Positions 6,922 through 58,405 of a stretch of DNA of 64,000 bases are shown here, piece by piece. This DNA comes from Treponema sp. Its GTDB lineage: Bacteria; Spirochaetota; Spirochaetia; Treponematales; Treponemataceae. The first letter of the stretch is position 1. The number at the start of each line of letters is the position of its first letter. The DNA is taken from contig JAGAZO010000020.1 of the NCBI GenBank assembly GCA_017940005.1, positions 186,001 through 250,000 of the forward strand, given 5' to 3'. The notes below the pieces were generated by a model. The model searched no databases. It was given only the letters and a program-made list of their open reading frames with translations, and was not told the origin of the DNA. Position numbers and translations under genes: made by a program.

Positions 6922-8220
6922 ATGCTTGACTATAAATTTATTAAAGACAATCTTGATGCGATAAAGCAAAATATCAAAAACCGCAACATGAGCGCAGATG
7001 CAGACGCAGTTGTAACGCTGTACGACGAGCGCACGTCTCTCGTAACGCAGCTCCAAAGCCTCCAACAAAAACGCAACGAAAACGCGGCCGCAATGAAAGG
7101 CAAAATGGATGAAAGCGCGCGCAAAACACTCATAGAAACAGGCAAGCAGCTCAAAGATGATATTGCCGCAACAGAAAAAAAACTTTCGCAAACGGAAAGC
7201 GCGCTTGAAGAAGCGGCGCGGAAAATTCCGAACATGGCGCATCCAAATGCTCCCATAGGAAAACTTGATTCAGAAAATCTTGAAGTAAAAAAAGTGGGAA
7301 CGGTGCGTTCGTTTTCGTTCAAGCCAAAAGACCACGTTGCGCTCGGCGAGTCGCTCGACATCATAGACTTTGAGCGCGGCACAAAAGTCTCCGGACAAAA
7401 ATTTTATTATCTCAAAAATGAAGCAGTGTTTCTTGAGCAGGCGCTCATCATGTACGCGCTCAACATATTGCGCAAGCACGGCTTTACACCGTTCATCACG
7501 CCCGACATTGCAAAGCAGGAAATTTTACAGGGCATAGGATTCAATCCACGCGGCAATGAATCGAACGTATACTGTATAGAAGATGAGAATACGTGCCTCG
7601 TGGCGACTGCGGAAATCACGCTCGGCGGCTATCATTCAGGCGAAATACTTGAAAAGTCAAAACTGCCGCTTTTGTACTGCGGGCTTTCACATTGCTTCCG
7701 TCGAGAAGCGGGCGCGGCAGGACACTTTAGCAAAGGCTTGTACCGCGTGCACCAGTTTGACAAAGTTGAAATGTTTGTGTACTGCCTGCCCGAGCAGTCC
7801 GACGAGCTGCACGAAAAGCTGCGCCAAATTGAAGAAGAGATTTTTACCGGGCTCGGCATTCCGTTCCGCGTCGTTGACACATGCACGGGCGACTTGGGCG
7901 CGCCCGCATACCGCAAGTGGGATTTGGAAGCGTGGATGCCAGGCAGAAGCGATGAAGCGCATCCCGATGGCGACTGGGGCGAAGTCACCTCCACGTCAAA
8001 CTGCACGGACTATCAGGCGCACAGGCTCGGCGTAAAATACAAAGACGACGACGGCAAAAATAAATTCGTGCACATGCTCAACGGAACGGCAATCGCAGTC
8101 GGGCGCGCCATGCTCGCTATTCTCGAAAATTATCAAAATGAGGACGGCTCCATCACCATTCCCGATGCGCTCAAACCATTGTGTGGATTTGATAAAATCG
8201 CACCAAAACACGAGGCATAA
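6922..8220 (+). CDS. serS: Seryl-tRNA synthetase
   Basis: Class II synthetase that charges tRNA-Ser (and tRNA-Sec where present). It has 432 residues, normal for the family. Start ATG at 6922 with GAGGA 8 nt upstream. The first 100 residues form the tRNA-binding coiled-coil arm. Motif 2 is HCFRREAG and motif 3 is GRAMLAILENYQNEDG. The family tail SITIPDALKP is followed by a short extension. It is 2 nt upstream of the permease gene and probably co-transcribed with it. Confidence 0.97.
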   Translation: MLDYKFIKDNLDAIKQNIKNRNMSADADAVVTLYDERTSLVTQLQSLQQKRNENAAAMKGKMDESARKTLIETGKQLKDDIAATEKKLSQTESALEEAARKIPNMAHPNAPIGKLDSENLEVKKVGTVRSFSFKPKDHVALGESLDIIDFERGTKVSGQKFYYLKNEAVFLEQALIMYALNILRKHGFTPFITPDIAKQEILQGIGFNPRGNESNVYCIEDENTCLVATAEITLGGYHSGEILEKSKLPLLYCGLSHCFRREAGAAGHFSKGLYRVHQFDKVEMFVYCLPEQSDELHEKLRQIEEEIFTGLGIPFRVVDTCTGDLGAPAYRKWDLEAWMPGRSDEAHPDGDWGEVTSTSNCTDYQAHRLGVKYKDDDGKNKFVHMLNGTAIAVGRAMLAILENYQNEDGSITIPDALKPLCGFDKIAPKHEA

Positions 8221-47599: not shown

Positions 47600-48838
47600 C
47601 TATAGCTTTTCCATCACTTTTGCGTGGAGCACATTGCATGTTTCGTCATTCATACCAAGTTTTTTTGCCGCGATAACATCTGCGAGCGCTTTGTCATATT
47701 CGCCCTCTTCGTAATACGCTTCTGCTCGACGATAAAACGCATGAGATTGGTATTCATTTATTGCAAGTGATTTTGAAAAACTCTTTATGGCTAACTTATT
47801 GTCTTTGAGGATTGAATGGACAATTCCTTCGTAATACAGCGCACGAAAATTTTTTGCATCATATGATGAACTCGCTTTAAAATCTTCAAGCGCGTTCTCA
47901 TATTCGCTCTCGGTAAAATATGCCATGCCACGATGTTTGTGAATTACAGAGAGTACTGCGGCAGGGGGTGATGCTTCAATAATCTGTGTATATATTTCAA
48001 TCGCTTTTAGCAAGTTACCGTCGTTATGTGCGTGGATTGCGTCAAGCAGCAAATCATCTATCGTCCCTTTTACATACATAGAAACGCGGCCAATCTTTTC
48101 GGAAGCTGTTTTTTGCACTTCCTTTTTAATAACATCAAGCTCGTCAACTTTTTCATAAAAGATTCTGCGCCGCTCATTCACTTCTCCTTGCAACTTTTTT
48201 TGATAATCGCGTATCTCTTGAAAAATGATGTCTGCAAGAGTAAGCGACGCATTGATGGATGCAAGTTTTCTTCGTAACGGCAAGTCAAACGGAGAAAACT
48301 CACTTTTGTATACAAGCTCATGTTCTACTTCCGCCCATGCGTCTTGCAAAATTGTACGTATCTGAATCTCGCACACAGCGGCATCAGGCAGTCGCATACC
48401 GGCAAAATCTTTTTCATCAGGTAAACACGACTGTGGTATCTTAACAAGAATATGCGTTGACTCGTATTCAAACTCTTTAAAATTTTGCGCAGGGCCTTTG
48501 CGCTCAATCTCTTTTATTTCAAACAGTTGCTTCAACTGCTCAAGCACAACCGCAGTGTCTTCAAGGAACGCGCATATTATTCTGATTCCCATCATATCGG
48601 TAAGGCAAACAAGCGTTGCTGCATCTGTATTCTGCATTTTTAAACGAAGTATTTTTTTATAATAACTCCTGAATGCTTTTATGCGAACTTTATATGTCGG
48701 TTGAGAGGCAAGCACAATATTTTTTTCAAGCAGCTTTTCAATGTTTTGAGCTGTTTGAGCAAGGTACGGCACATATAGTTCATATGTTTTTTGAATCTGC
48801 GCTTTCAACGGCAGGGTGTCATAAACAATATCTTTCAT
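47600..48838 (-). CDS. RelA/SpoT-type (p)ppGpp synthetase domain fused to TPR repeats
   Basis: A 412-residue cytoplasmic protein. Start ATG 48838 (MKDIVYDTLPL); a longer start would lie inside the flaA terminator. Residues about 30-210 form an alarmone synthetase domain: YKVRIKAFRSYYKKI, LTDMMGIRIIC (Mg-binding Asp), YESTHILVK, and CEIQIRTILQDAWAEVEHELVYK. There is no HD hydrolase and no TGS/ACT tail. A helical linker (about 210-275) leads to four TPRs to the end. It may be a small alarmone synthetase controlled by protein contact. No ribosome site or promoter separates it from the flaA terminator 19 nt upstream. Confidence 0.85.
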   Translation of the reverse strand: MKDIVYDTLPLKAQIQKTYELYVPYLAQTAQNIEKLLEKNIVLASQPTYKVRIKAFRSYYKKILRLKMQNTDAATLVCLTDMMGIRIICAFLEDTAVVLEQLKQLFEIKEIERKGPAQNFKEFEYESTHILVKIPQSCLPDEKDFAGMRLPDAAVCEIQIRTILQDAWAEVEHELVYKSEFSPFDLPLRRKLASINASLTLADIIFQEIRDYQKKLQGEVNERRRIFYEKVDELDVIKKEVQKTASEKIGRVSMYVKGTIDDLLLDAIHAHNDGNLLKAIEIYTQIIEASPPAAVLSVIHKHRGMAYFTESEYENALEDFKASSSYDAKNFRALYYEGIVHSILKDNKLAIKSFSKSLAINEYQSHAFYRRAEAYYEEGEYDKALADVIAAKKLGMNDETCNVLHAKVMEKL

Positions 48839-48856
48839 ACGCGTGCTAAAAACAAA

Positions 48857-48889
48857 AAACGTCCTTATCGCCATTCGATAAGGACGTTT
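48857..48889 (-). terminator. Strong terminator after flaA
   Basis: AAACGTCCTTATCG (48857-48870) pairs perfectly with CGATAAGGACGTTT (48876-48889), 14 bp with a 5-nt loop. On the minus strand a T-rich tail (TTTTTTGTTTTT) follows. Confidence 0.9.
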
Positions 48890-48906: not shown

Positions 48907-50007
48907 TTATTTTGCATCTGCCGCAGTTGCAGCATTGCCGCCTGTACGAGCAGCATTTGACCTGCCGCCTTCATTGAGGCTTGGAGTAAATTCTGTTTCC
49001 GTTGCCTGCAAAACGCGCTCAATATAGCGGTTAACTTGCTTGTTTCCAAAACGCGCCATTTCAAGCGCTTGGCGTCGTCTCTCGCGTTCAGTTACAATGC
49101 CCCAAAGGTCTTCATCTGCAATGTCGCGCTCTGATGTAAGCACTGCTTTGTCGTAGATGATTTTCACATCTTTGAAGTAACCGATGTAGTCGCCGCCGAT
49201 ATGTGCAGCGTCGCGCGTAACAAGGAAACCCGCAAACTTCACATACGGAACGCCGCGCGGATACACAGGGTATACGCGGATTTCGCGATTGCGGATGTCG
49301 CCAATATACTGCGGGTTGTTCCACTGGAGTTCTTTCCAGCCGTCAAAGCCGAGATAGCCCATGAAATAGCGGCGCTCAATATTGTCGTTGTCTTTGAGCA
49401 GGACATACAGTCCTTCGGGATAGTTCATGCCCAAAGTTGTGACAGCGATAGATTTGATTGCGCCGACATTTTTCACAACGCCGTAGCCGTCTTCAAAAAG
49501 CGTTTTTCCACTCGCTTTTTCTTCATCGGTCTGTTCCTGACGATTTCCGTCTGCATCTGCTTCTGCAAGCGGTTCAAATGCAGGAATGTCAAACGGCGGA
49601 ACGATGCGCGCATTTGCGTTTGAATTCCATGTAGGGAATACGACGCGCACACCCATGACGTTTGAGCCTGCAAACGGTACATCTGCTTCGCCGCGAACAG
49701 GAGCCGCAACAACTGTTGAAAGCCCTACAGACTGGACGTTTCGCGCAGATGAGTTAAGCTCCACTTCCCATTCAGGAAGAGCGAGAGAAGTCTTCATGAG
49801 CTCCTTTTGCTCTTCGGTGAATGTAGCGCCTGCTGCCATGGCAAAATCCATGACTGTGCGGCTGTTTTGCGTCGGATTCCCGTACTCATCTGAAACGCAG
49901 TCTGCATCAAGTTGCGTAAAATCAATGATAACTGATTCTTCAGCAACGAGACCGGCGCCACCAACAAGCAGCATTGCTGCCGCAATTACTAAAAAAGTCT
50001 TCTTCAT
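48907..50007 (-). CDS. flaA: Periplasmic flagellar filament outer-layer (sheath) protein FlaA
   Basis: Spirochete sheath protein that coats the FlaB core of the periplasmic flagella and affects filament stiffness and coiling. It has 366 residues, with signal peptide FLVIAAAMLLVGGAGLVA. Family landmarks are VVFPTWNSNANARIVPPF, YVLLKDNDNIERRYFMGYLGF, LQWNNPQYI and FKDVKIIYDKAVL. The C-terminal 25 residues are Asn/Ala/Gly-rich. ATG 50007 with AAGGAG. It has its own promoter and a strong terminator, so it is a monocistronic, probably abundant mRNA. Confidence 0.95.
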   Translation of the reverse strand: MKKTFLVIAAAMLLVGGAGLVAEESVIIDFTQLDADCVSDEYGNPTQNSRTVMDFAMAAGATFTEEQKELMKTSLALPEWEVELNSSARNVQSVGLSTVVAAPVRGEADVPFAGSNVMGVRVVFPTWNSNANARIVPPFDIPAFEPLAEADADGNRQEQTDEEKASGKTLFEDGYGVVKNVGAIKSIAVTTLGMNYPEGLYVLLKDNDNIERRYFMGYLGFDGWKELQWNNPQYIGDIRNREIRVYPVYPRGVPYVKFAGFLVTRDAAHIGGDYIGYFKDVKIIYDKAVLTSERDIADEDLWGIVTERERRRQALEMARFGNKQVNRYIERVLQATETEFTPSLNEGGRSNAARTGGNAATAADAK

Positions 50008-50085: not shown

Positions 50086-50547
50086 TTATTGCTTGACAAG
50101 CTCGACTTCCTCATAAGCATATTCACCGGCAACAAATACATCTACAGTATGAATATTTCTAAAATTATACAGGATATTTTTCCTGAATAATTCTATCCCT
50201 TGCTTTATTTCAGATGCGTTTCCATCTTCTGCAAGAAGCGCATCTGAAAGATTTACGTACAGCACGTCGCCGCGCATAAAACACGACTCCGCTTTTGTAC
50301 CCCGCGAAAAAAGTGGCATGTATTCCGCGGTAAGCGGCCCGAGCAACAGCTCGTCAACATACATGTTCACTTTGCCCTGCACAGGATTTCTCGGCAAATA
50401 CCGCGACTCCATGCAGATTTTGCTGTTCGAAGCAGATTCAAACATGAATACATACCTCGTGCCAGGTAAGCGGAAACACCACACAACAAGAGACAGACCA
50501 AGACTTGCCGCACAAACAGCGGCAAGAATCACCGATGATTTTTTCAT
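50086..50547 (-). CDS. GerMN-domain exported protein
   Basis: A 153-residue protein with an N-terminal signal anchor and one GerMN domain (VNMYVDELLLGPL ... GVLYVNLSDALL-like core, ending KNILYNFRNIHTVDVFVAGE). GerMN domains occur in envelope and sporulation proteins, often beside amidases, and are thought to bind other envelope proteins. Here it sits 17 nt after the amidase in the same operon, so it may regulate that enzyme. This is inference. Confidence 0.82.
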   Translation of the reverse strand: MKKSSVILAAVCAASLGLSLVVWCFRLPGTRYVFMFESASNSKICMESRYLPRNPVQGKVNMYVDELLLGPLTAEYMPLFSRGTKAESCFMRGDVLYVNLSDALLAEDGNASEIKQGIELFRKNILYNFRNIHTVDVFVAGEYAYEEVELVKQ

Positions 50548-50564
50548 ACCGTCATCCTACAAAA

Positions 50565-51617
50565 TCATCTTGATGATGTAAACCCTCTTGACCTTTCAAA
50601 GTGCGTGATAAAATCACTTACCCCGTTATATATGCCGAGCGACGCTTTTTGCAGATACTGCTGGCTGCTCAAATTCTGCGCTTCAGCATAATTTGTTAAA
50701 AACCCAAGCTCCACAAGCACGCTCGGCATGTTCGCGTTGCGCACGACAAACCACTCTTCCGCTTTTATGCCTCGTCCTTTTGACGAGTCGCCTATCTGCG
50801 CTGCAAGTCCGTCCATAATAAATTTTGCAATAAGAATACTTTCTGTCGTGTATTCCTCTTCTGTCATCGCGTTGAGAATCGGAAAGAGCGTCGTATCGTT
50901 ATCCGCGTCCGCTTGATTGATGACAGTGCGCCTGTAGCCCGGCGACAGATACCACACTTCATACCCGCTCGCTTTTTTGTCGAGCGACGCGTTGACATGC
51001 ACTGAAATGTACAAAATCGCCTCGTTCTTGTTGAGCTTCACTGCGTTTGCAATGTCAGTGCGCTCTCCCAAAGAAAGAAACGTATCAGTGTTGCGCGTCA
51101 TGATTATCTGCTTGTCGGGATACGCGGCAGTAAGTCGCGCGTACAGCATTTTCCCGACAGCGAGCGTCACATCTTTTTCGCGAATCGCAAGCGTCTTTCC
51201 GTTTTCTCTGAACACCTGGCTTGCGCCAGGGTCCTTGCCGCCGTGACCAGGGTCAATCAAAATCGCACCAACGCGATACGGCATGTGCGCGCTCTCTGTC
51301 TTAAAAAACGATTCCGCATCAGTCATAAAGTCGTGCGAGACGAGCAGCGTGCCGTTTGCAAGTGACGGCGCGTCTGCAAGCGAAAGCTTTTTGTTGTCGA
51401 GCAGCACAAGATTATCGCCTGCACGGAAGCTGATTTGATGACCATTTTTTTCAAGCAAACCTGTCTGCGAAAGGCTGTCCCAATAGACAGCTATGCCCGC
51501 CCGTTCCGCTTCCTCAAGCAACGCAACTTTTTCAGCTGCAAACACGAGCGGCACGAGCGAGAGCAACACAATGAGAACACACATCGTTTGTTTTGGCACA
51601 AAAAACAGTCTACCCAT
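50565..51617 (-). CDS. N-acetylmuramoyl-L-alanine amidase (Amidase_3)
   Basis: Zinc amidase that cuts stem peptides from peptidoglycan glycans in the periplasm. It has 350 residues. Start ATG 51617, with AGAGG 5 nt upstream and 8 nt of overlap with the ATP-grasp gene. After a signal peptide comes a copper-amine-oxidase-N-like region (about 30-110). The catalytic domain has ILIDPGHGGKDPGAS, a downstream Glu in IREKDVTLAV, YISVHVNAS, and the closing VLVELGFLTN. It is probably used for septum cleavage or for flagellar passage through the wall. Confidence 0.92.
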   Translation of the reverse strand: MGRLFFVPKQTMCVLIVLLSLVPLVFAAEKVALLEEAERAGIAVYWDSLSQTGLLEKNGHQISFRAGDNLVLLDNKKLSLADAPSLANGTLLVSHDFMTDAESFFKTESAHMPYRVGAILIDPGHGGKDPGASQVFRENGKTLAIREKDVTLAVGKMLYARLTAAYPDKQIIMTRNTDTFLSLGERTDIANAVKLNKNEAILYISVHVNASLDKKASGYEVWYLSPGYRRTVINQADADNDTTLFPILNAMTEEEYTTESILIAKFIMDGLAAQIGDSSKGRGIKAEEWFVVRNANMPSVLVELGFLTNYAEAQNLSSQQYLQKASLGIYNGVSDFITHFERSRGFTSSR

Positions 51618-53244
51618 TATCCCTCTTCCTCATTAGAGTATCGGCAAAATAGAGCATTCCCTGCACCCCTCCGCGCACACAATTTTTCCAAAATTTTTTA
51701 GCGTCAAATTCAGCATGATTTTTGCACAGCTCGTCAAACAGCGTGCATGTTTGCGAAAATGTGCGGCAGTTCCAATCACGCTCTTGCGACGCGTACAGCG
51801 CTGCAAGCTGTGCAGGAATGTTGTCCGAGACGCGTGCATTTTGCGGAATGATGCCGCATATGGATTCAATGTCTTTCGGCGTGCTGTACGCTGCAGGCGG
51901 AAATTGCGCTTCCGACTTTTCTTCTGCGCCTGAAAGAAATGCGTCTGTGTCTGCATTGTCAGCTTCAAGGCGAAGCACTATGTCTGACACAGCGCGTTCA
52001 GCAGCTGCAACGCTCTCATCGCGCGTCTTTGCAAGCGAAAGCACGTTGCCGCATTTTTGCACATTGTTGCGCGGGAACACAACGCGCTCGCCGTGTGCAG
52101 CACGCGGAAACACATCATTTACCTGCGTGCACGAGGCAGCATGTGCAACACCGACAACTTCTTTGACAACGCCTGGAATTGAAATCCATGCGCGCTCGCT
52201 GCTCGTCTGCGTGCACGGCACATCGTACAATTCGTACGGTGCCCCTATGCCACTGCACGAGTCAGGTGGCGTAAACTGCACAGGATGCCGCATCGCTTCA
52301 AGCGCTTCAGGCGTTTTTCCGCACGCGATGAGCAGCGCCTGCTCGGTGAGGTTGCAGCCTGACGCATACGGATATGTCCAGCCCGACATGTAGCCGCCTG
52401 AAAGACGCGCCGCAATCTCGCCAATCATAGGACCGTTTTCTGTATACTTGATATCTGCTTTTGCAGCTCCGCACGTGAGTCCGAGCGCGCGTGCGCCAAG
52501 CGCAAACGCTGCAATCAATTCGCTTCGTTTTTTTTCATCGATTGCAGCAGGCATCGTATGCCCCATCTCTACAAAATACGGCGGAAAATAGATATGCCTG
52601 TCTGCAAATCCTGTCACAGTAAACGTGCCGTCATATATGAGCGCATCTATTGAATATTCGTCACCGCGCATGTACTGCTCAAGTATCGCTGTGCTCGTGC
52701 GTGAGGAAGCGAGAGCATTTTTCGCCGCTTCTGCAATTTCGTCCGCGCTTCGTATCATGCGGCAACCGCGCCCGCCCATGTTGTCTTGCGGCTTTACAAC
52801 GCATGGAAAGCCAAGCTTTTTCACAAACTCATTGATGCTGCCGTTTGCAATGTCGTCCTGCGTGACGCTAAAAAATTGCGGCGACGGCACGCCGTGTTTC
52901 TCAAAGCAGCTTCTCATGCGCGTTTTGATGCTCGCATTTAGCGCTGCTTCATACGAGTGGCAATGAAGCGACAGCTTTTCTCCAGCATATGAAACTGATG
53001 TTGAAAAATCTGTGCCGGCAGTAAAGATTGCCGCAAGTCCGTCGTCGCGCGCTAAATTTTTTGCAAGTGAAAAAATCGCTTCGCTATCTTTCAAGTCTAT
53101 CTTTTCAAAGCGGTCAGCAAGCGGAACGCACACAGCATGTTCATTTACATCGACGACAACTGCGCAACAGCCGAGTTTTTTTGCAGCTTCGATGGCAGGT
53201 CTTTGCAAAAAACCTGCTCCTAAAATTATTAATTTTTTTTTCAT
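51610..53244 (-). CDS. ATP-grasp ligase in a glycan operon
   Basis: A 544-residue cytoplasmic protein. The N-terminal Rossmann part (KKKLIILGAGFLQRPAIEAAKKLG), ATP-grasp domain with VVKPQDNMGGRGC (about 145-161), YSIDALIYDG, and the metal site MIGEIAARLSGG are clear, as in carbamoyl-phosphate-synthase-like ligases that join a carboxylate to an amine. The last 100 residues are an extension I do not recognise. Its stop overlaps the amidase start, and its ATG lies 4 nt after the fusion gene. Substrate is unknown, probably a sugar acid or amino acid for the same glycan. Confidence 0.82.
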   Translation of the reverse strand: MKKKLIILGAGFLQRPAIEAAKKLGCCAVVVDVNEHAVCVPLADRFEKIDLKDSEAIFSLAKNLARDDGLAAIFTAGTDFSTSVSYAGEKLSLHCHSYEAALNASIKTRMRSCFEKHGVPSPQFFSVTQDDIANGSINEFVKKLGFPCVVKPQDNMGGRGCRMIRSADEIAEAAKNALASSRTSTAILEQYMRGDEYSIDALIYDGTFTVTGFADRHIYFPPYFVEMGHTMPAAIDEKKRSELIAAFALGARALGLTCGAAKADIKYTENGPMIGEIAARLSGGYMSGWTYPYASGCNLTEQALLIACGKTPEALEAMRHPVQFTPPDSCSGIGAPYELYDVPCTQTSSERAWISIPGVVKEVVGVAHAASCTQVNDVFPRAAHGERVVFPRNNVQKCGNVLSLAKTRDESVAAAERAVSDIVLRLEADNADTDAFLSGAEEKSEAQFPPAAYSTPKDIESICGIIPQNARVSDNIPAQLAALYASQERDWNCRTFSQTCTLFDELCKNHAEFDAKKFWKNCVRGGVQGMLYFADTLMRKRDNG

Positions 53245-53248
53245 TATT

Positions 53249-55723
53249 TCAAAACCTGTTTATCTTTTTGCAATACACTTCAAATGTGTCGCCAAGTTTC
53301 AACAAGCGGCTTTTGCGCTCGTACAACTTGTACATGAACGAATCTTTTTTCCAATGCTTCTTTTCCGCTTGCGGAAATCGCTCTGGATGATGTCCCGTCG
53401 AAACTATCTTTTCTACAGTAAATCCGAACTGCTTCAAAATGCTGCGCGTTTTTGATGGCTCCCAAATCGTGTAGTGGTCAGACGGACTTTGATTGTAAAA
53501 CCGCTGCGCATGCATCTTTGCAGAAACGCCTTCGCCAGACGGCGTTGAAAATGCAAACACACCTCCAACTTTTACCAGCTTTGAAACGGCGGCAAGCACT
53601 GAAGCAAGTTCGCGAAAGTGTTCAATCACATACCACATTGTCACCGCATCGAACTCGTACATGCCGAACTCTTGCGCTGCGTTGAATGCGGGAAACTGTG
53701 CATGGGCGGCGGGAAAAAGCAGCGTTGACTGGACATATGCAACAGCCTCCTCCGAAATGTCTGTTCCAAAAACTTGCCAGCCGTCATCGCTCGCAGCAGC
53801 AAGGAACGGACCGTACGCGCAGCCTACATCGAGCAGCACAGGCTTTGCCGCCACATGCTTTTTGTTTTTTACAAGCGCATCTATTTCACGCATGCGCCGC
53901 TTTCCGTGCGCTTTTATCGCGTCAAAATCTTCGAGATACGTTTTGCCGTATTGATTTTTATATTCTTCCGCAAAATACGATGTGCCGTAGTCAGTAGTTT
54001 TTTCAGCTGCTGTCCACGACATGTATATCATGCCGCACGAATTGCACTGCCTGAATGTACGAAACGGCGTGCGCGCAACGATTGCACTTTTTTCAGCATC
54101 GTCAACGTTGCAGAGCGGACACGGCAAACGCATGCTGCCTGCAAGCGAAGCGATATAAGAGCCAAGCGTTTTTTCACCGCGCGCAATTTCAGAATATGTT
54201 GTACTGTCGCGATACAGTTTTTGTGGCGTTACAAAAATCTCCTGCATACGCGCGCTTGTCAATTCGTTTTTTTGCAGACACACAAAACCATACTTTTTTG
54301 CAAGACTGGCATGAAGCGGTGTCGTTGCAACGAGCACAACGCCACACCCTGCGCTTGCAGCTTCGTAGGCGGTAAGCCCGTAGTGCGTGATAACAATATC
54401 GTACTGAAAGAGCTGCTCGCGCAACAGCGGCACCGCGCCGACATACTGCACGCCATTACGCGCAGGAAATTCTTCGCGACAGTGTTCAGGCACAACAGCT
54501 ACTACGCTGCGCGTTCCGTCGGCACACGCCAACACTGCAGGAATTGTCAATTTTTCCGGGTCTTCACCGCCAAAGCAGACGAGCACATTTCTAATATCGG
54601 AGCGTGTTTTGCATTGGCGCGTGCTGCGCTTTTTTTGCGGCAACGATATATATTCTGGTGCCGTGCAGTTTGCGGCGCGCGAAAGATTTGACGGAATGAT
54701 GTCGAGAAGATAATCGCAGTAGTTCGTGTATGAAGAGCCTTCGTCGAGTGCAACAAGCGGCGCACAATCATGCAACGCGGCAGCAGTTTCTCTTTCAAGC
54801 GAAAAGCAGTCTGCAACTATGAGCGCGTATTCATTTTTTTGCGGCTGTGTTCGCACAATTTGCCACTGCGCAAGCGAAGAGCGGGACACAAGCTGCTCGC
54901 ACGACGGCAAGTCAGCATCTTCAGGAATGTATACCGACGCACCCGTCTCTGTTGCTGCCTCGATGCATCGCTGCAAGTGTCCCATGCCCCTGCCCGCTTT
55001 CACCGACGGCACATAGAGCACAGACTGCATCACTCCCGGCGAATTGAACGCGCTCACGATGTGCTCAACAGGGTACGGCTCGCAAGGTGCCGCTCCGCGC
55101 GACAGATGCTGCACCACGGTGAGCGCACGCCGATAATCTGACGCAGTGTCGATTGTCGTGCGAAGTTCTGGAAAATAAAAACGCGATGGAGCTTTGAGCA
55201 TGAGCGCAGAAAACCTGTTGCGATGATTGTACAGCGCTGGTCCCACATGCTCGCGGTCATATGGAACGCTTGTTAATTTTTCTGCTTCGATGAGCGCGTG
55301 CGCGTCAAACACTTCTACACCAGAACCGTGCGGCAGCCCTGTCCACGTGATGTAATCGCATTTTGAAAACGAGATGCGCCGCTTGTATTCGTCGAGGAGC
55401 GCCACCGCTGCTTCGTAAAACAAAAACGGGTTATCCGCAGTGGCGCGCACAACTACGTCAGCATTGATTTTGTCAATGAGCAGGCAAAATCGCTTGAGCA
55501 CGTCTTCGAGCGGCCCTGCAAATATTTCCCAGCCGCATGACGCTGCAACAGGCGCAAGCTCGCCGAATGACGCTTCGTCAGTGGCGACATAATACGCATC
55601 TGCTGGAACTTTGCGCATAGCGTTGAGCGTCCATGCGAGCACAGGTTTTCCGCCCAAATCTTTGAGCGCTTTTCCAGGAAGCCGCGTCGAAGAAATTCTG
55701 CACTGCACGATTACTGCTGTCAT
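53249..55723 (-). CDS. Fusion: SpsF-like cytidylyltransferase + PseG-like glycosyl hydrolase + SAM methyltransferase
   Basis: An 824-residue three-part protein. Residues 1 to about 240 are an SpsF/CMP-KDO-synthetase-type nucleotidyltransferase (VIVQCRISSTRLPGKALKDLGGKPVLAW, VRATADNPFLFYE). About 245-525 resemble SpsG/PseG, a UDP-sugar hydrolase of the nonulosonic-acid pathway (GRGMGHLQRCIEAA, VCFGGEDPEKL, ITHYGLTAYEA). About 535-824 are a methyltransferase with a four-cysteine knuckle (CPLC...CNSC) and SAM motif LLDVGCAYGPF (near 627). It overlaps the glycosyltransferase gene by 4 nt. Likely role: makes an activated, methylated sugar for surface or flagellar glycan. Domain identities are by motif reading. 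Confidence 0.85.
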   Translation of the reverse strand: MTAVIVQCRISSTRLPGKALKDLGGKPVLAWTLNAMRKVPADAYYVATDEASFGELAPVAASCGWEIFAGPLEDVLKRFCLLIDKINADVVVRATADNPFLFYEAAVALLDEYKRRISFSKCDYITWTGLPHGSGVEVFDAHALIEAEKLTSVPYDREHVGPALYNHRNRFSALMLKAPSRFYFPELRTTIDTASDYRRALTVVQHLSRGAAPCEPYPVEHIVSAFNSPGVMQSVLYVPSVKAGRGMGHLQRCIEAATETGASVYIPEDADLPSCEQLVSRSSLAQWQIVRTQPQKNEYALIVADCFSLERETAAALHDCAPLVALDEGSSYTNYCDYLLDIIPSNLSRAANCTAPEYISLPQKKRSTRQCKTRSDIRNVLVCFGGEDPEKLTIPAVLACADGTRSVVAVVPEHCREEFPARNGVQYVGAVPLLREQLFQYDIVITHYGLTAYEAASAGCGVVLVATTPLHASLAKKYGFVCLQKNELTSARMQEIFVTPQKLYRDSTTYSEIARGEKTLGSYIASLAGSMRLPCPLCNVDDAEKSAIVARTPFRTFRQCNSCGMIYMSWTAAEKTTDYGTSYFAEEYKNQYGKTYLEDFDAIKAHGKRRMREIDALVKNKKHVAAKPVLLDVGCAYGPFLAAASDDGWQVFGTDISEEAVAYVQSTLLFPAAHAQFPAFNAAQEFGMYEFDAVTMWYVIEHFRELASVLAAVSKLVKVGGVFAFSTPSGEGVSAKMHAQRFYNQSPSDHYTIWEPSKTRSILKQFGFTVEKIVSTGHHPERFPQAEKKHWKKDSFMYKLYERKSRLLKLGDTFEVYCKKINRF

Positions 55724-56682
55724 ATCTCTGTCACCCAGTTTTCTATGAGATGCTGCATGTCCGTATGAAAGCGCGATTTATTAATCGCTACCCACGCGCG
55801 CGCATCAGCAAACTGTCGGTGCGCTTCAAAAATGCCGCATGACGAATTTGCCAAAAAAGAAAAAAATGATGTACGCGGAATAACGCCGCCTGAATCACTT
55901 TTAAAGCGAGGCGCAATATTTTTTAGATAAAAGTGCAAGTATGTTAAATCGGCTGTCGTATCTTCAATAGGAATATCATCGCTGTACGAAAGCAAAAATG
56001 TTGTCGAGAGACATGTCTGCTCGCCCCACAGCCATGAGCGAAGCGCTAAATCAAGATTTTGATAATACGGAGAAGCGATAGTATAATCAAATCCGCCGAG
56101 CTGAATAAATTTTGTCTTGTTGTACAAGCCGATAAAATCAAACGGATAGAGCGTATGCATGCCGTCTTTTACCACTGTCGAAGAGAGCACGCGGAATTTG
56201 CCTTTTTGAGCAGAGGGAGAAAACTGCACAGGCACTGCATTCTTTTGCGCGTCGAGCAAGCGCGGCACAATGCAATAGCTTCCCGACGACATGAGATGTT
56301 CTGCAAGCCGCGTCTGGAGCATGTTGTGCGTTACGTGGAGCGAATCGCGCAGCACGAGCACATATGGAGCGCGCGCCTCGCTCATGCCAAGATTTATCAT
56401 GTCGCCGTCAGTAACGTTTTCAAGCGGCACGATAAATGTAATCGACGGAAACTTTTTTGCAATCTCTTCGAGGTTGCAGTTTCCCGCATGAGGCTCCAGC
56501 GAGATGATTTGCGAAAAGCCGCATTTTGAAAGCGTTTCGAGCGTGTGCGTGCGGAACTGGCTGCCATGCGAATTGAGCAGCACAACAGTGACATTCGTCT
56601 TTCCCTCATCTGCGCGTGCTCGGCCGCCTATCACCGTTCTGTTGATTTGGTGCTCGTTAAAAATTAAAGGTATAGTATTCAT
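55720..56682 (-). CDS. GT-A-fold glycosyltransferase, family 2-like
   Basis: A 320-residue protein. The first part reads like a GT2 domain (VTVVLLNSHGSQFRTHTLETL, NVTDGDMINLGMSEARAPYVLVLRDSLHVT), where the second segment takes the place of the DxD region, here atypical. Later GGFDYTIASPYYQNLDLALR matches the end of GT2 domains. Start ATG 56682 with GGAA, overlapping the upstream gene by 26 nt and the next by 4 nt. It would transfer the sugar made by its operon neighbours. The acceptor is unknown. Confidence 0.75.
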   Translation of the reverse strand: MNTIPLIFNEHQINRTVIGGRARADEGKTNVTVVLLNSHGSQFRTHTLETLSKCGFSQIISLEPHAGNCNLEEIAKKFPSITFIVPLENVTDGDMINLGMSEARAPYVLVLRDSLHVTHNMLQTRLAEHLMSSGSYCIVPRLLDAQKNAVPVQFSPSAQKGKFRVLSSTVVKDGMHTLYPFDFIGLYNKTKFIQLGGFDYTIASPYYQNLDLALRSWLWGEQTCLSTTFLLSYSDDIPIEDTTADLTYLHFYLKNIAPRFKSDSGGVIPRTSFFSFLANSSCGIFEAHRQFADARAWVAINKSRFHTDMQHLIENWVTEI

Positions 56683-58222
56683 CGCATTTCCTGCACGCTT
56701 CTTCGCGCTCGCCGTTCATGTCGCGTTCAACATATGGCGTAATCCTTTCCCAGATAGATTCAAGCCGTTCTACAAACGCGTTTCCGATTATGTTGTCAAA
56801 TAAAAATTCGCGGCACAGCGGCACATCTCCGTTTGCAAGAATCGTCATGTCACGGCGCATGTGCCAGCACGGATTTCGCTCAAGCGGCGACAAGTCTGCA
56901 GGCTTCCAATCGGGGAGCGCGCCGCAAAATGAATCGTATTTTTGAATTATCACATTCCCGCCGTGCGCCGCATCTTTCCAATACCGATAAAATGATTCAA
57001 GCTCGCATTCGTTTTCGTTTGTGCGCACAAGCTGCGGATAGACATTTTCAGGAAAATGCGTTTGCAGCAGCGTCACCGCCGCTACCGCTTGCGAAAGCGT
57101 TCCCGCCTCGCCGTGCATTTTTTTGTACAGAGCTTCTGTCGCCGCATCAAGTGTGACAATCCATATAATTTTGCCGTCTGCAATAGCTTTGATTTCTTTG
57201 CAAAGCGATTCAGTAACGTGCAAGCCGTTCGTCTCGACGAGCACAGAAAGCCCAGACTCCGAGACGACAGCTTTAACAAAATCTACAAACTGCGGATGAA
57301 GGAGCGGCTCGCCCCACGCAGAAAGCGAGACAACAGCGTTTTCTGAAAGAGCTGCCATCTGCTGTACGAGCGGCGCAAACTGTTCGAGCGTCATGCGCAC
57401 AGCATTTTGTGATGATGGAGCAGTTCCATATTTTTTTTCATATGCAGCTTTATATGGCGAGTACACGACGCTGCCCTCTTCTGCTGGCTCAATGTGCACA
57501 TTGTAAAACGCAGGCACTGTTTTCAAAACAGCAGCAAGGCGCACTGCTGTTTCGCACAACGCTTCCGCATTGTCAGTGTTGCAATGAGAATCGTACACTG
57601 CACGGCACGAATAAAATCCTGCTTTTGTTGAGCACTCAAACGAAAGCCTGTACAACCGCCAGTCTTTTGGCGCAAGCACAGTCTCTATTTCAAACGAGTT
57701 GATGTCTGTTTTGAGCAACGACATGATGCTGTCGCGCTTAACAATTTCACTGCCGATTTTTTTCTGCTGCGAAAGAGACGCAAGGATGATTGCCGCATCT
57801 TTGTTAATAATCTCAGGCGTCATGCCATAGGGATAGCCGTCTGCAAACGTGTACTCTGCAACATATGTTTTGTGCGCGGCAATTAACTCATCTGTCACCG
57901 CTTTATTGAGGAACGGACAGTCAAACGCAGCATAGACAGCAGCATCTGCACCGCGTTCAGCGCACACATGCGCAATCGTTTCAAGCAATGTAGAAACAGT
58001 CCACGCATCTTTTTCTATGAGCGTAATTGACGCATTGTTTTTGCGCGCTTCAGCCTCGCAACGCGCAGCATTTTCTTTTGCAGCGCACACAACAGTGCCG
58101 ACGCTTTCAGGCACAGTGCAAGCCCATGAAAGCGCGCTGTCATACGCAGAAAAATTGCCAAACGATGTTTCAAACGCGTACTGCCCGCTAAAACCAGCAA
58201 AGAGAATCACAACAGTCTTCAT
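56657..58222 (-). CDS. Spiro-SPASM protein (radical-SAM relative without the CxxxCxxC motif)
   Basis: A 521-residue protein. Start ATG 58222; longer readings are repeat-derived. Residues 1-230 look like a nucleotidyltransferase-type domain (AAFDCPFLNKAVTDELIAAH). From about 239 the chain follows a radical-SAM barrel (SLSAWGEPLLHPQFVDFVK, VETNGLHVTESL, WIVTLDAATEALY), but where CxxxCxxC should be it reads YNVHIEPAEEGSVVYSPY with no cysteine. The C-terminal SPASM-like cysteines remain: NPCWHM, VPLCREF, CRKCDEYY. This matches my memory of the NCBI family named spiro-SPASM (TIGR04321). It heads the glycan operon. Its chemistry is unknown; classical radical-SAM catalysis is unlikely. Confidence 0.85.
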   Translation of the reverse strand: MKTVVILFAGFSGQYAFETSFGNFSAYDSALSWACTVPESVGTVVCAAKENAARCEAEARKNNASITLIEKDAWTVSTLLETIAHVCAERGADAAVYAAFDCPFLNKAVTDELIAAHKTYVAEYTFADGYPYGMTPEIINKDAAIILASLSQQKKIGSEIVKRDSIMSLLKTDINSFEIETVLAPKDWRLYRLSFECSTKAGFYSCRAVYDSHCNTDNAEALCETAVRLAAVLKTVPAFYNVHIEPAEEGSVVYSPYKAAYEKKYGTAPSSQNAVRMTLEQFAPLVQQMAALSENAVVSLSAWGEPLLHPQFVDFVKAVVSESGLSVLVETNGLHVTESLCKEIKAIADGKIIWIVTLDAATEALYKKMHGEAGTLSQAVAAVTLLQTHFPENVYPQLVRTNENECELESFYRYWKDAAHGGNVIIQKYDSFCGALPDWKPADLSPLERNPCWHMRRDMTILANGDVPLCREFLFDNIIGNAFVERLESIWERITPYVERDMNGEREEACRKCDEYYTFNF

Positions 58223-58234: not shown

Positions 58235-58315
58235 GGCAGAGAACAACCATAAATTGAGAAAAAGCGCACATGGCAGCGCAATTGCACAGCAGCGCATCCT
58301 CACAACGGCGCAATA

Positions 58316-58405
58316 GCGCGGCAACGTGTTCCAGCGGTGCAATCGCACAATGGCACAACAGCGTGGCAATGCGTTCCAGCGGTGCAATCGTGCCATTGCA
58401 CAAAT
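58316..58405. repeat. Two tandem copies of a 45-bp unit
   Basis: Units at 58316-58360 and 58361-58405 share ttccagcggtgcaatcg and more, with a few substitutions. A partial, more diverged copy may precede. It fills the gap between the divergent spiro-SPASM and xseA genes and includes the xseA promoter. 45 bp is 15 codons, so both strands stay open, which makes false N-terminal extensions of both genes. Confidence 0.8.

Follow-up and report, generated by a model that had tools for sequence, protein, structure and literature searches.

We analysed a 64,000-nucleotide stretch of DNA (the window) from a Treponema sp. with a 2.4-Mb genome (assembly GCA_017940005.1, contig JAGAZO010000020.1, positions 186,001 to 250,000), in which six tandem genes lie just upstream of the flagellar gene flaA. 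They encode a spiro-SPASM protein, a glycosyltransferase (GT), a SpsF-PseG-methyltransferase fusion, an ATP-grasp ligase, an amidase and a GerMN-like protein. Judged from their sequences, the first four genes probably cover the greater part of a spirochete pathway for the synthesis and activation of a nonulosonic acid (NulO) of the pseudaminic type, which carries an acyl modification and serves O-glycosylation of the periplasmic flagellin, FlaB. We base this reading on the observed gene content, domains, conserved active-site residues, co-occurrence and patterns of loss. The known glycosylation of flagellins with nonulosonic acid explains the operon in part. The new points are the phylum-wide gene set, the proposal of an ATP-grasp ligase in place of PseH, the separation of two gene modules in Borrelia, and the repeated loss of a radical S-adenosylmethionine (SAM) centre.

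An earlier note, made from the DNA letters of the window, had described six overlapping genes at this locus. All six do stand in tandem where it placed them, and the junction distances from spiro-SPASM to flaA are -26, -4, +4, -8, +17 and +78 bp; thus, three junctions overlap and the others within the six have gaps. Its domain assignments agree with our matches to TIGR04321, CTP_transf_3, Methyltransf_23, ATP-grasp_4 with LAL_C2, Amidase_3 and Germane, and flaA does follow the GerMN-like gene (Table 1). The order from a divergent xseA through the six genes and flaA to a Rel gene was unrearranged in 80/80 Treponema loci. These are the loci with named organisms, and genes were absent only towards contig or locus ends. 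The nearest named relatives at the locus are a metagenome-assembled Treponema genome from goat reticulum (91% for the ATP-grasp) and T. socranskii (62%). This block also occurs in other families and orders (G006, G111, G123, G080, G157, G159). Counted from coordinates, SpsF and spiro-SPASM are ~2 kb or less apart in at least 42 genomes from 15 families. Because the order is constant in Treponema and recurs in other families and orders, the arrangement is not due to chance.

The fusion protein carries several of the expected steps. The best solved relative of its SpsF domain is 6oew (E 6e-17), and most relatives show the RxxSxRLPxK signature. The PseG domain scores weakly in the single window sequence (27.9 bits; equivalog cut-off 153.6). 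With the profile of its relatives (A3), the best PDB match is 3hbm, the UDP-sugar hydrolase PseG of C. jejuni (E 1e-7); the GxGH motif is invariant among the relatives and the catalytic His is kept. The methyltransferase domain shows the zinc-ribbon (CxxC...CxxC) and SAM (LDxGCAxG) motifs in most relatives. Outside Treponemataceae, the gene is split into parts of ~230 aa and ~590 aa. The match to the PseF profile stayed far below its cut-off (18 bits vs 206), and the SpsF-type domain may fill this cytidylyltransferase step. PseH, the N-acetyltransferase, exceeded its cut-off in 0/38 genomes and gave no match at E 1e-3 in a T. pallidum-like genome (G049; 1.14 Mb). The latter holds adjacent genes for a PseB-like dehydratase (long; 173 bits, cut-off 408) and a PseC-like transaminase (318 bits, cut-off 424), these being their best families. 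Its single NeuB has an orthologue (43% identity) in the third NeuB of the source genome, on contig 7.

We checked the distribution of the genes in 150 spirochete genomes. Spiro-SPASM was present in 144/150, and the SpsF-PseG-methyltransferase query matched exactly the same 144; since this count takes in any homologous domain, the absences carry the weight. NeuB was found in 145/150 (the match in the flagellum-less G131 being weak only) and flagellin in 149/150. The pathway is missing from six genomes: five are Borrelia-like and have flagellin, and the sixth is G131, which has none. In the order of G131, spiro-SPASM exceeded the cut-off in 4/4 flagellated genomes of g81 and in 0/7 flagellum-less genomes of g12. 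Among the genomes tested for the ATP-grasp, the match was strong in the flagellated G157 and G159 and at background in G131, G150 and G152; it was missing in 3/3 Borrelia-like genomes and strong in every other flagellated genome. In summary, spiro-SPASM and SpsF-PseG-methyltransferase follow flagella, with the Borrelia-like genomes as the exception. Both the co-occurrence of these genes and the link to flagella that the earlier note had suggested are borne out, and the distribution, together with the three domains of the fusion, supports its idea of an activated nonulosonic-type sugar with methylation.

As destinations for the sugar, the note had named flagella or the cell surface. Flagella stand, by distribution, with FlaB as the putative target rather than FlaA. 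This is because Wyss 1998 (cited in PMC13144727) describes in its title flagellins as glycosylated and sheath proteins as not, and FlaB1-3 of T. denticola all carry a novel 450.2-Da glycan that is essential for filament assembly (PMC9481697). Cryo-EM also suggests that Leptospira FlaB1 carries glycans, placed between the core and the sheath (PMC13144727). In the FlaB motifs VEVSQL and DRIAS, each of the five Borrelia-like flagellins carries Glu and Asp in place of the Ser of most others. This contrast is weak evidence for the acceptor: it comes from one clade only, some flagellins of pathway-positive genomes lack one or both Ser, and the Ser of the second motif (DRIAS) is present in Salmonella FliC, too.

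It is unlikely that the product of the operon is a nonulosonic acid destined for the cell surface (a lipopolysaccharide-like, capsule or outer-membrane glycan) with flaA as an incidental neighbour. SpsF- and NeuB-type genes often do serve surface glycans, the source genome has surface polysaccharide genes, and surface NulOs are known in Leptospira (PMC3438082). However, a second nonulosonic-acid set lies in a surface-polysaccharide locus on another contig of the same genome (G000 contig 17; L146:13728-17719 and 7254-8153). This cluster has its own PseB (529 bits, over cut-off, and the only PseB over cut-off in the genome), a SpsF-like protein, a LegC/PseC-like aminotransferase, NeuB, and PseI over cut-off. 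Since this separate cluster exists, the operon is not needed to explain a surface sugar. Moreover, within a single order the presence of the operon genes follows that of flagella, these genes persist in the 1.14-Mb T. pallidum-like genome, and a FlaB glycan is known in T. denticola.

The ATP-grasp ligase is the candidate enzyme for the acyl group. Its nucleotide/metal site (K107, K151, E189, D264, E276, R280, N394) is invariant in 20/20 relatives. The best characterised or solved relatives of its profile include the L-amino acid ligase BL00235 and BacD, which form an amide bond between a carboxylate and an amine; by its sequence, the ligase of the operon is a conserved enzyme of the L-amino-acid-ligase type. 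C11H18N2O6 is the 274-Da unit described in PMC3765264. By mass calculation, the T. denticola glycan (450.185) corresponds to this unit, a mono-acetyl pseudaminic residue, plus C7H12O5. The extra group is reportedly a 2-methoxy-4,5,6-trihydroxyhexanoyl on N7. Such a glycan, with one acetyl, one O-methyl and one amide, would fit a pathway having no PseH together with a methyltransferase and an ATP-grasp ligase, and we infer that these two enzymes may make and attach a methylated acyl group in place of PseH.

Domain fusions also bear on the acid used. In many deep spirochetes (among them L127, L138, L192, L199, L200), the ATP-grasp is C-terminally fused to an FMN_dh domain with a Cys-rich linker (CxxCxxxxC...PGMGG); the Leptospira version of this domain (L129) is degenerate (54 bits vs 233 in L127). 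Directly after SpsF-PseG-methyltransferase, the T. pallidum-like genome has a HAD phosphatase and then a free FMN dehydrogenase (L062:9938-11719). The FMN_dh family acts on 2-hydroxy acids, and this fusion and neighbourhood suggest a 2-hydroxy acid as the substrate. We rejected the FMN dehydrogenase as a core pathway gene, because the source genome has no orthologue of it. The alternative that the ligase adds a true amino acid, making an aminoacylated glycan here as the earlier note had allowed, draws on the L-amino acid ligases being its closest characterised relatives. We find this improbable, as the substituent of the T. denticola glycan fits a nitrogen-free C7H12O5 and the ligase of deep spirochetes is joined to a domain of the hydroxy-acid dehydrogenase type. 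The ligase of the note stands, and, going by the glycan mass, its acyl group is better read as a methylated hydroxy acid.

The amidase, the GerMN-like protein and FlaA make up a separate module next to the sugar genes. Borrelia-like genomes still have GT, amidase and FlaA together, with chemotaxis-like genes after them, but lack spiro-SPASM, SpsF, PseG, methyltransferase, ATP-grasp and NeuB. One such locus (L187:5178-8776) shows GT, amidase, a 182-aa protein without a Pfam match in the GerMN position, and FlaA. The T. pallidum-like genome retains spiro-SPASM, GT, SpsF-PseG-methyltransferase, ATP-grasp, NeuB and the PseB-like and PseC-like genes, dispersed as a sugar block at ~300 kb, ATP-grasp at 764 kb, NeuB at 611 kb and amidase-GerMN-FlaA at 261 kb. 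Its order from SPASM to HAD-FMN dehydrogenase equals the TPASS_0285-0291 listing in PMC4403809. T. denticola-like genomes have a spiro-SPASM-GT-SpsF-PseG-methyltransferase block and a separate ATP-grasp, again with amidase-GerMN-FlaA apart. Because these three groups of genomes split them, sugar making and wall cutting are separable, and the coordination with wall cutting supposed by the earlier note lacks support. A six-gene unit in which the amidase and the GerMN-like protein open the cell wall in concert with flagellar sugar synthesis is very unlikely: the order is conserved across the class and T. denticola flaA is co-transcribed with four upstream genes (PMC9481697), but the halves lie apart in two of these groups, Borrelia retains amidase and FlaA without any sugar gene, and flaA has a promoter-like site of its own.

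The spiro-SPASM protein matches TIGR04321 over its full length, and we found no work on it in the literature. In the window protein, the CX3CX2C radical-SAM triad is absent, with E, V and S at the three positions. The triad is lost in 76/99 members of the family, while the four SPASM cysteines are kept in 98/99. On the spiro-SPASM tree, the state of the triad needs at least 12 changes. Counting losses only, we obtained 17 on the full tree, 11 with branches below 80% support collapsed and 8 below 95%; with long branches and many poorly supported forks in the tree, the number of losses is a range (about 8-17). The AlphaFold model (predicted local distance difference test, pLDDT, 92.6) resembles the Leptospira cytidylyltransferase 6oew in its front half and BtrN in its back half (4m7t; template modelling (TM) score 0.72) as the best Foldseek matches. 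The SpsF signature RxxSxRLPxK was not seen in the front half. With the radical SAM/SPASM superfamily, the family shares a fold close to BtrN; it differs in its extra cytidylyltransferase-like domain and in the lack of the triad from most members. Judged by its sequence, the window protein is ruled out as a conventional active radical-SAM enzyme; it resembles a pseudo-enzyme whose front half is cytidylyltransferase-like and whose radical-SAM barrel is degenerate. SpsF and spiro-SPASM adjoin each other throughout the phylum, and the front half of spiro-SPASM shares the fold of SpsF; for these reasons we speculate that spiro-SPASM may be a structural partner of SpsF.

The GT matched no Pfam family and gave no significant match in a PDB sequence search. 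Its AlphaFold model (pLDDT 88.8) has a predicted GT-A fold. The best Foldseek matches are polypeptide GalNAc-transferases over the whole chain (E ~1e-11; TM by query ~0.6, which is modest), so the model makes a protein-directed role plausible. A CMP-nonulosonate donor would be unusual for the GT-A fold. We rejected a strict tie of the GT to nonulosonic acid, as Borrelia keeps it without the sugar genes. Beside flaB in two genomes, we found no Maf transferase, only FliD, PilZ and unrelated proteins; no genome-wide PF01973 search was made.

Put together, the pathway would run as follows; we infer here in which order the steps occur, which acyl substrate is used, what spiro-SPASM does and which protein is the acceptor. 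PseB/PseC-type enzymes encoded elsewhere would produce a UDP-4-amino-sugar, to whose amino group the ATP-grasp ligase, replacing PseH, would join a carboxylic acid; the fused methyltransferase would methylate this acid or its adduct. The PseG domain would then remove UDP, a NeuB/PseI enzyme encoded elsewhere would add three carbons, and the SpsF domain would make the CMP-sugar. A transferase, possibly the GT of the operon, would place the activated sugar on Ser/Thr of FlaB before export. Spiro-SPASM would be a conserved, mostly non-catalytic partner, plausibly of SpsF. A bolder version can be held only tentatively: that ATP-grasp and methyltransferase ancestrally replaced PseH in spirochetes by loading a methylated hydroxy-acyl group onto the nonulosonic acid of the flagella, and that spiro-SPASM, keeping its four-Cys cluster, is an obligatory non-catalytic subunit of SpsF as CMP-sugar synthetase, whose radical-SAM chemistry was an optional tailoring step lost many times.

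Several points weigh against the flagellin pathway as we propose it. The losses belong to two clades, so the co-occurrence counts are not independent. A T. denticola-like GNAT at 69 bits (PseH cut-off 93) could acetylate the sugar. The acyl group of the window species may differ from the one reported for T. denticola, as the source genome lacks the FMN dehydrogenase that deep lineages have fused to the ATP-grasp. In L. biflexa, no identifiable NulO was found (PMC3438082).

The flanks of the operon have further features. Promoter-like sites number 23 in the region vs 12.3 in shuffles, and the flaA site falls in the 78-bp gap. Terminator-like sites are not enriched (19 vs 18.5 in shuffles), and the hairpin after flaA has the longest stem by far. 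3' of flaA (window 47600-48874) lies a gene for a RelA/SpoT-type synthetase domain fused to TPR repeats; nearly every Treponema locus that reaches this far has it in the same position. A 45-bp tandem repeat, present in two copies (window 58301-58390), lies between spiro-SPASM and the divergent xseA and extends both predicted reading frames. Two more FlaA-family genes stand side by side beyond the window, near the contig end (G000 contig 20, 277904-279223).

Table 1. Features of the operon and of flaA in the window (positions are those of the window).
Feature	Position	Strand	Basis
spiro-SPASM gene, 521 aa	56657..58222	-	TIGR04321 535 bits, full-length match
N-terminal cytidylyltransferase-like domain of spiro-SPASM, residues ~1-235	57518..58222	-	NTP_transf_3 E 7.5e-4; 6oew TM 0.77 by target length
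GT, 320 aa	55720..56682	-	GT-A by predicted structure
SpsF-PseG-methyltransferase fusion gene, 824 aa	53249..55723	-	domain matches
SpsF-type cytidylyltransferase domain, residues 1-225	55049..55723	-	CTP_transf_3 E 3e-29
PseG-type UDP-sugar hydrolase domain, residues 226-520	54164..55048	-	relatives' profile vs 3hbm E 1e-7
Zinc-ribbon class-I SAM methyltransferase domain, residues 521-824	53252..54163	-	Methyltransf_23 E 5e-19
ATP-grasp carboxylate-amine ligase, 544 aa	51610..53244	-	ATP-grasp_4 + LAL_C2
N-acetylmuramoyl-L-alanine amidase, N-terminal Cu_amine_oxidN1 domain	50565..51617	-	Amidase_3 E 3e-44
GerMN-like protein	50086..50547	-	Germane E 1.5e-5
Sigma-70-like promoter TTGACA-17-GATAAT, 5' of flaA	50050..50078	-	consensus match only, 11/12 bases
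flaA, flagellar sheath protein	48907..50007	-	PF04620 (FlaA) E 8e-78
Terminator-like hairpin, 16 pairs, 3' of flaA	48855..48891	-	consensus match only

Nearly the entire phylum shares a small conserved gene set; one of its carriers is a T. pallidum-like genome, which is hard to study genetically. In the literature we searched, we found no gene-level account of the synthesis of the unusual flagellar glycan of spirochetes and no assignment of genes to the acyl group; the operon offers a candidate enzyme for this odd group and predicts an exact mass change for each mutant. It also predicts a Borrelia flagellin without such a sugar. A radical-SAM family that has repeatedly lost catalysis and is yet near-universal is a good system for the role of the auxiliary cluster domain itself.

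Three known systems resemble the operon. The Campylobacter/Helicobacter Pse pathway (PseB-C-H-G-I-F) shares the PseG and cytidylyltransferase steps, with PseB-like, PseC-like and NeuB-type genes elsewhere. The spirochete system differs in having no PseH over cut-off, a SpsF-like rather than a PseF enzyme, steps fused to a methyltransferase, and an added ATP-grasp. A direct precedent is sfmABCDE of Shewanella oneidensis (NeuB, methyltransferase, ATP-grasp), on which normal modification of the flagellin depends; the sugar is a mono-acetyl nonulosonic acid of 274 Da that bears a methylated substituent of 236-264 Da, and the species has no clear PseH (PMC3765264). The likeness is one of gene types, not of an alignment with SfmE. 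The Shewanella system has other substituent genes (IlvB-like, reductase) and MAF-type proteins nearby, lacks spiro-SPASM and the SpsF-PseG-methyltransferase fusion, and shows a milder defect when its ATP-grasp gene is deleted. The third is the FlaB glycan of T. denticola (Kurniyati et al. 2017, as cited in PMC9481697 and PMC13144727), which comes from the same bacterial family and whose mass fits mono-acetyl pseudaminic acid plus C7H12O5. There, the ATP-grasp gene is separate; in the window, the genes form one operon that ends at flaA.

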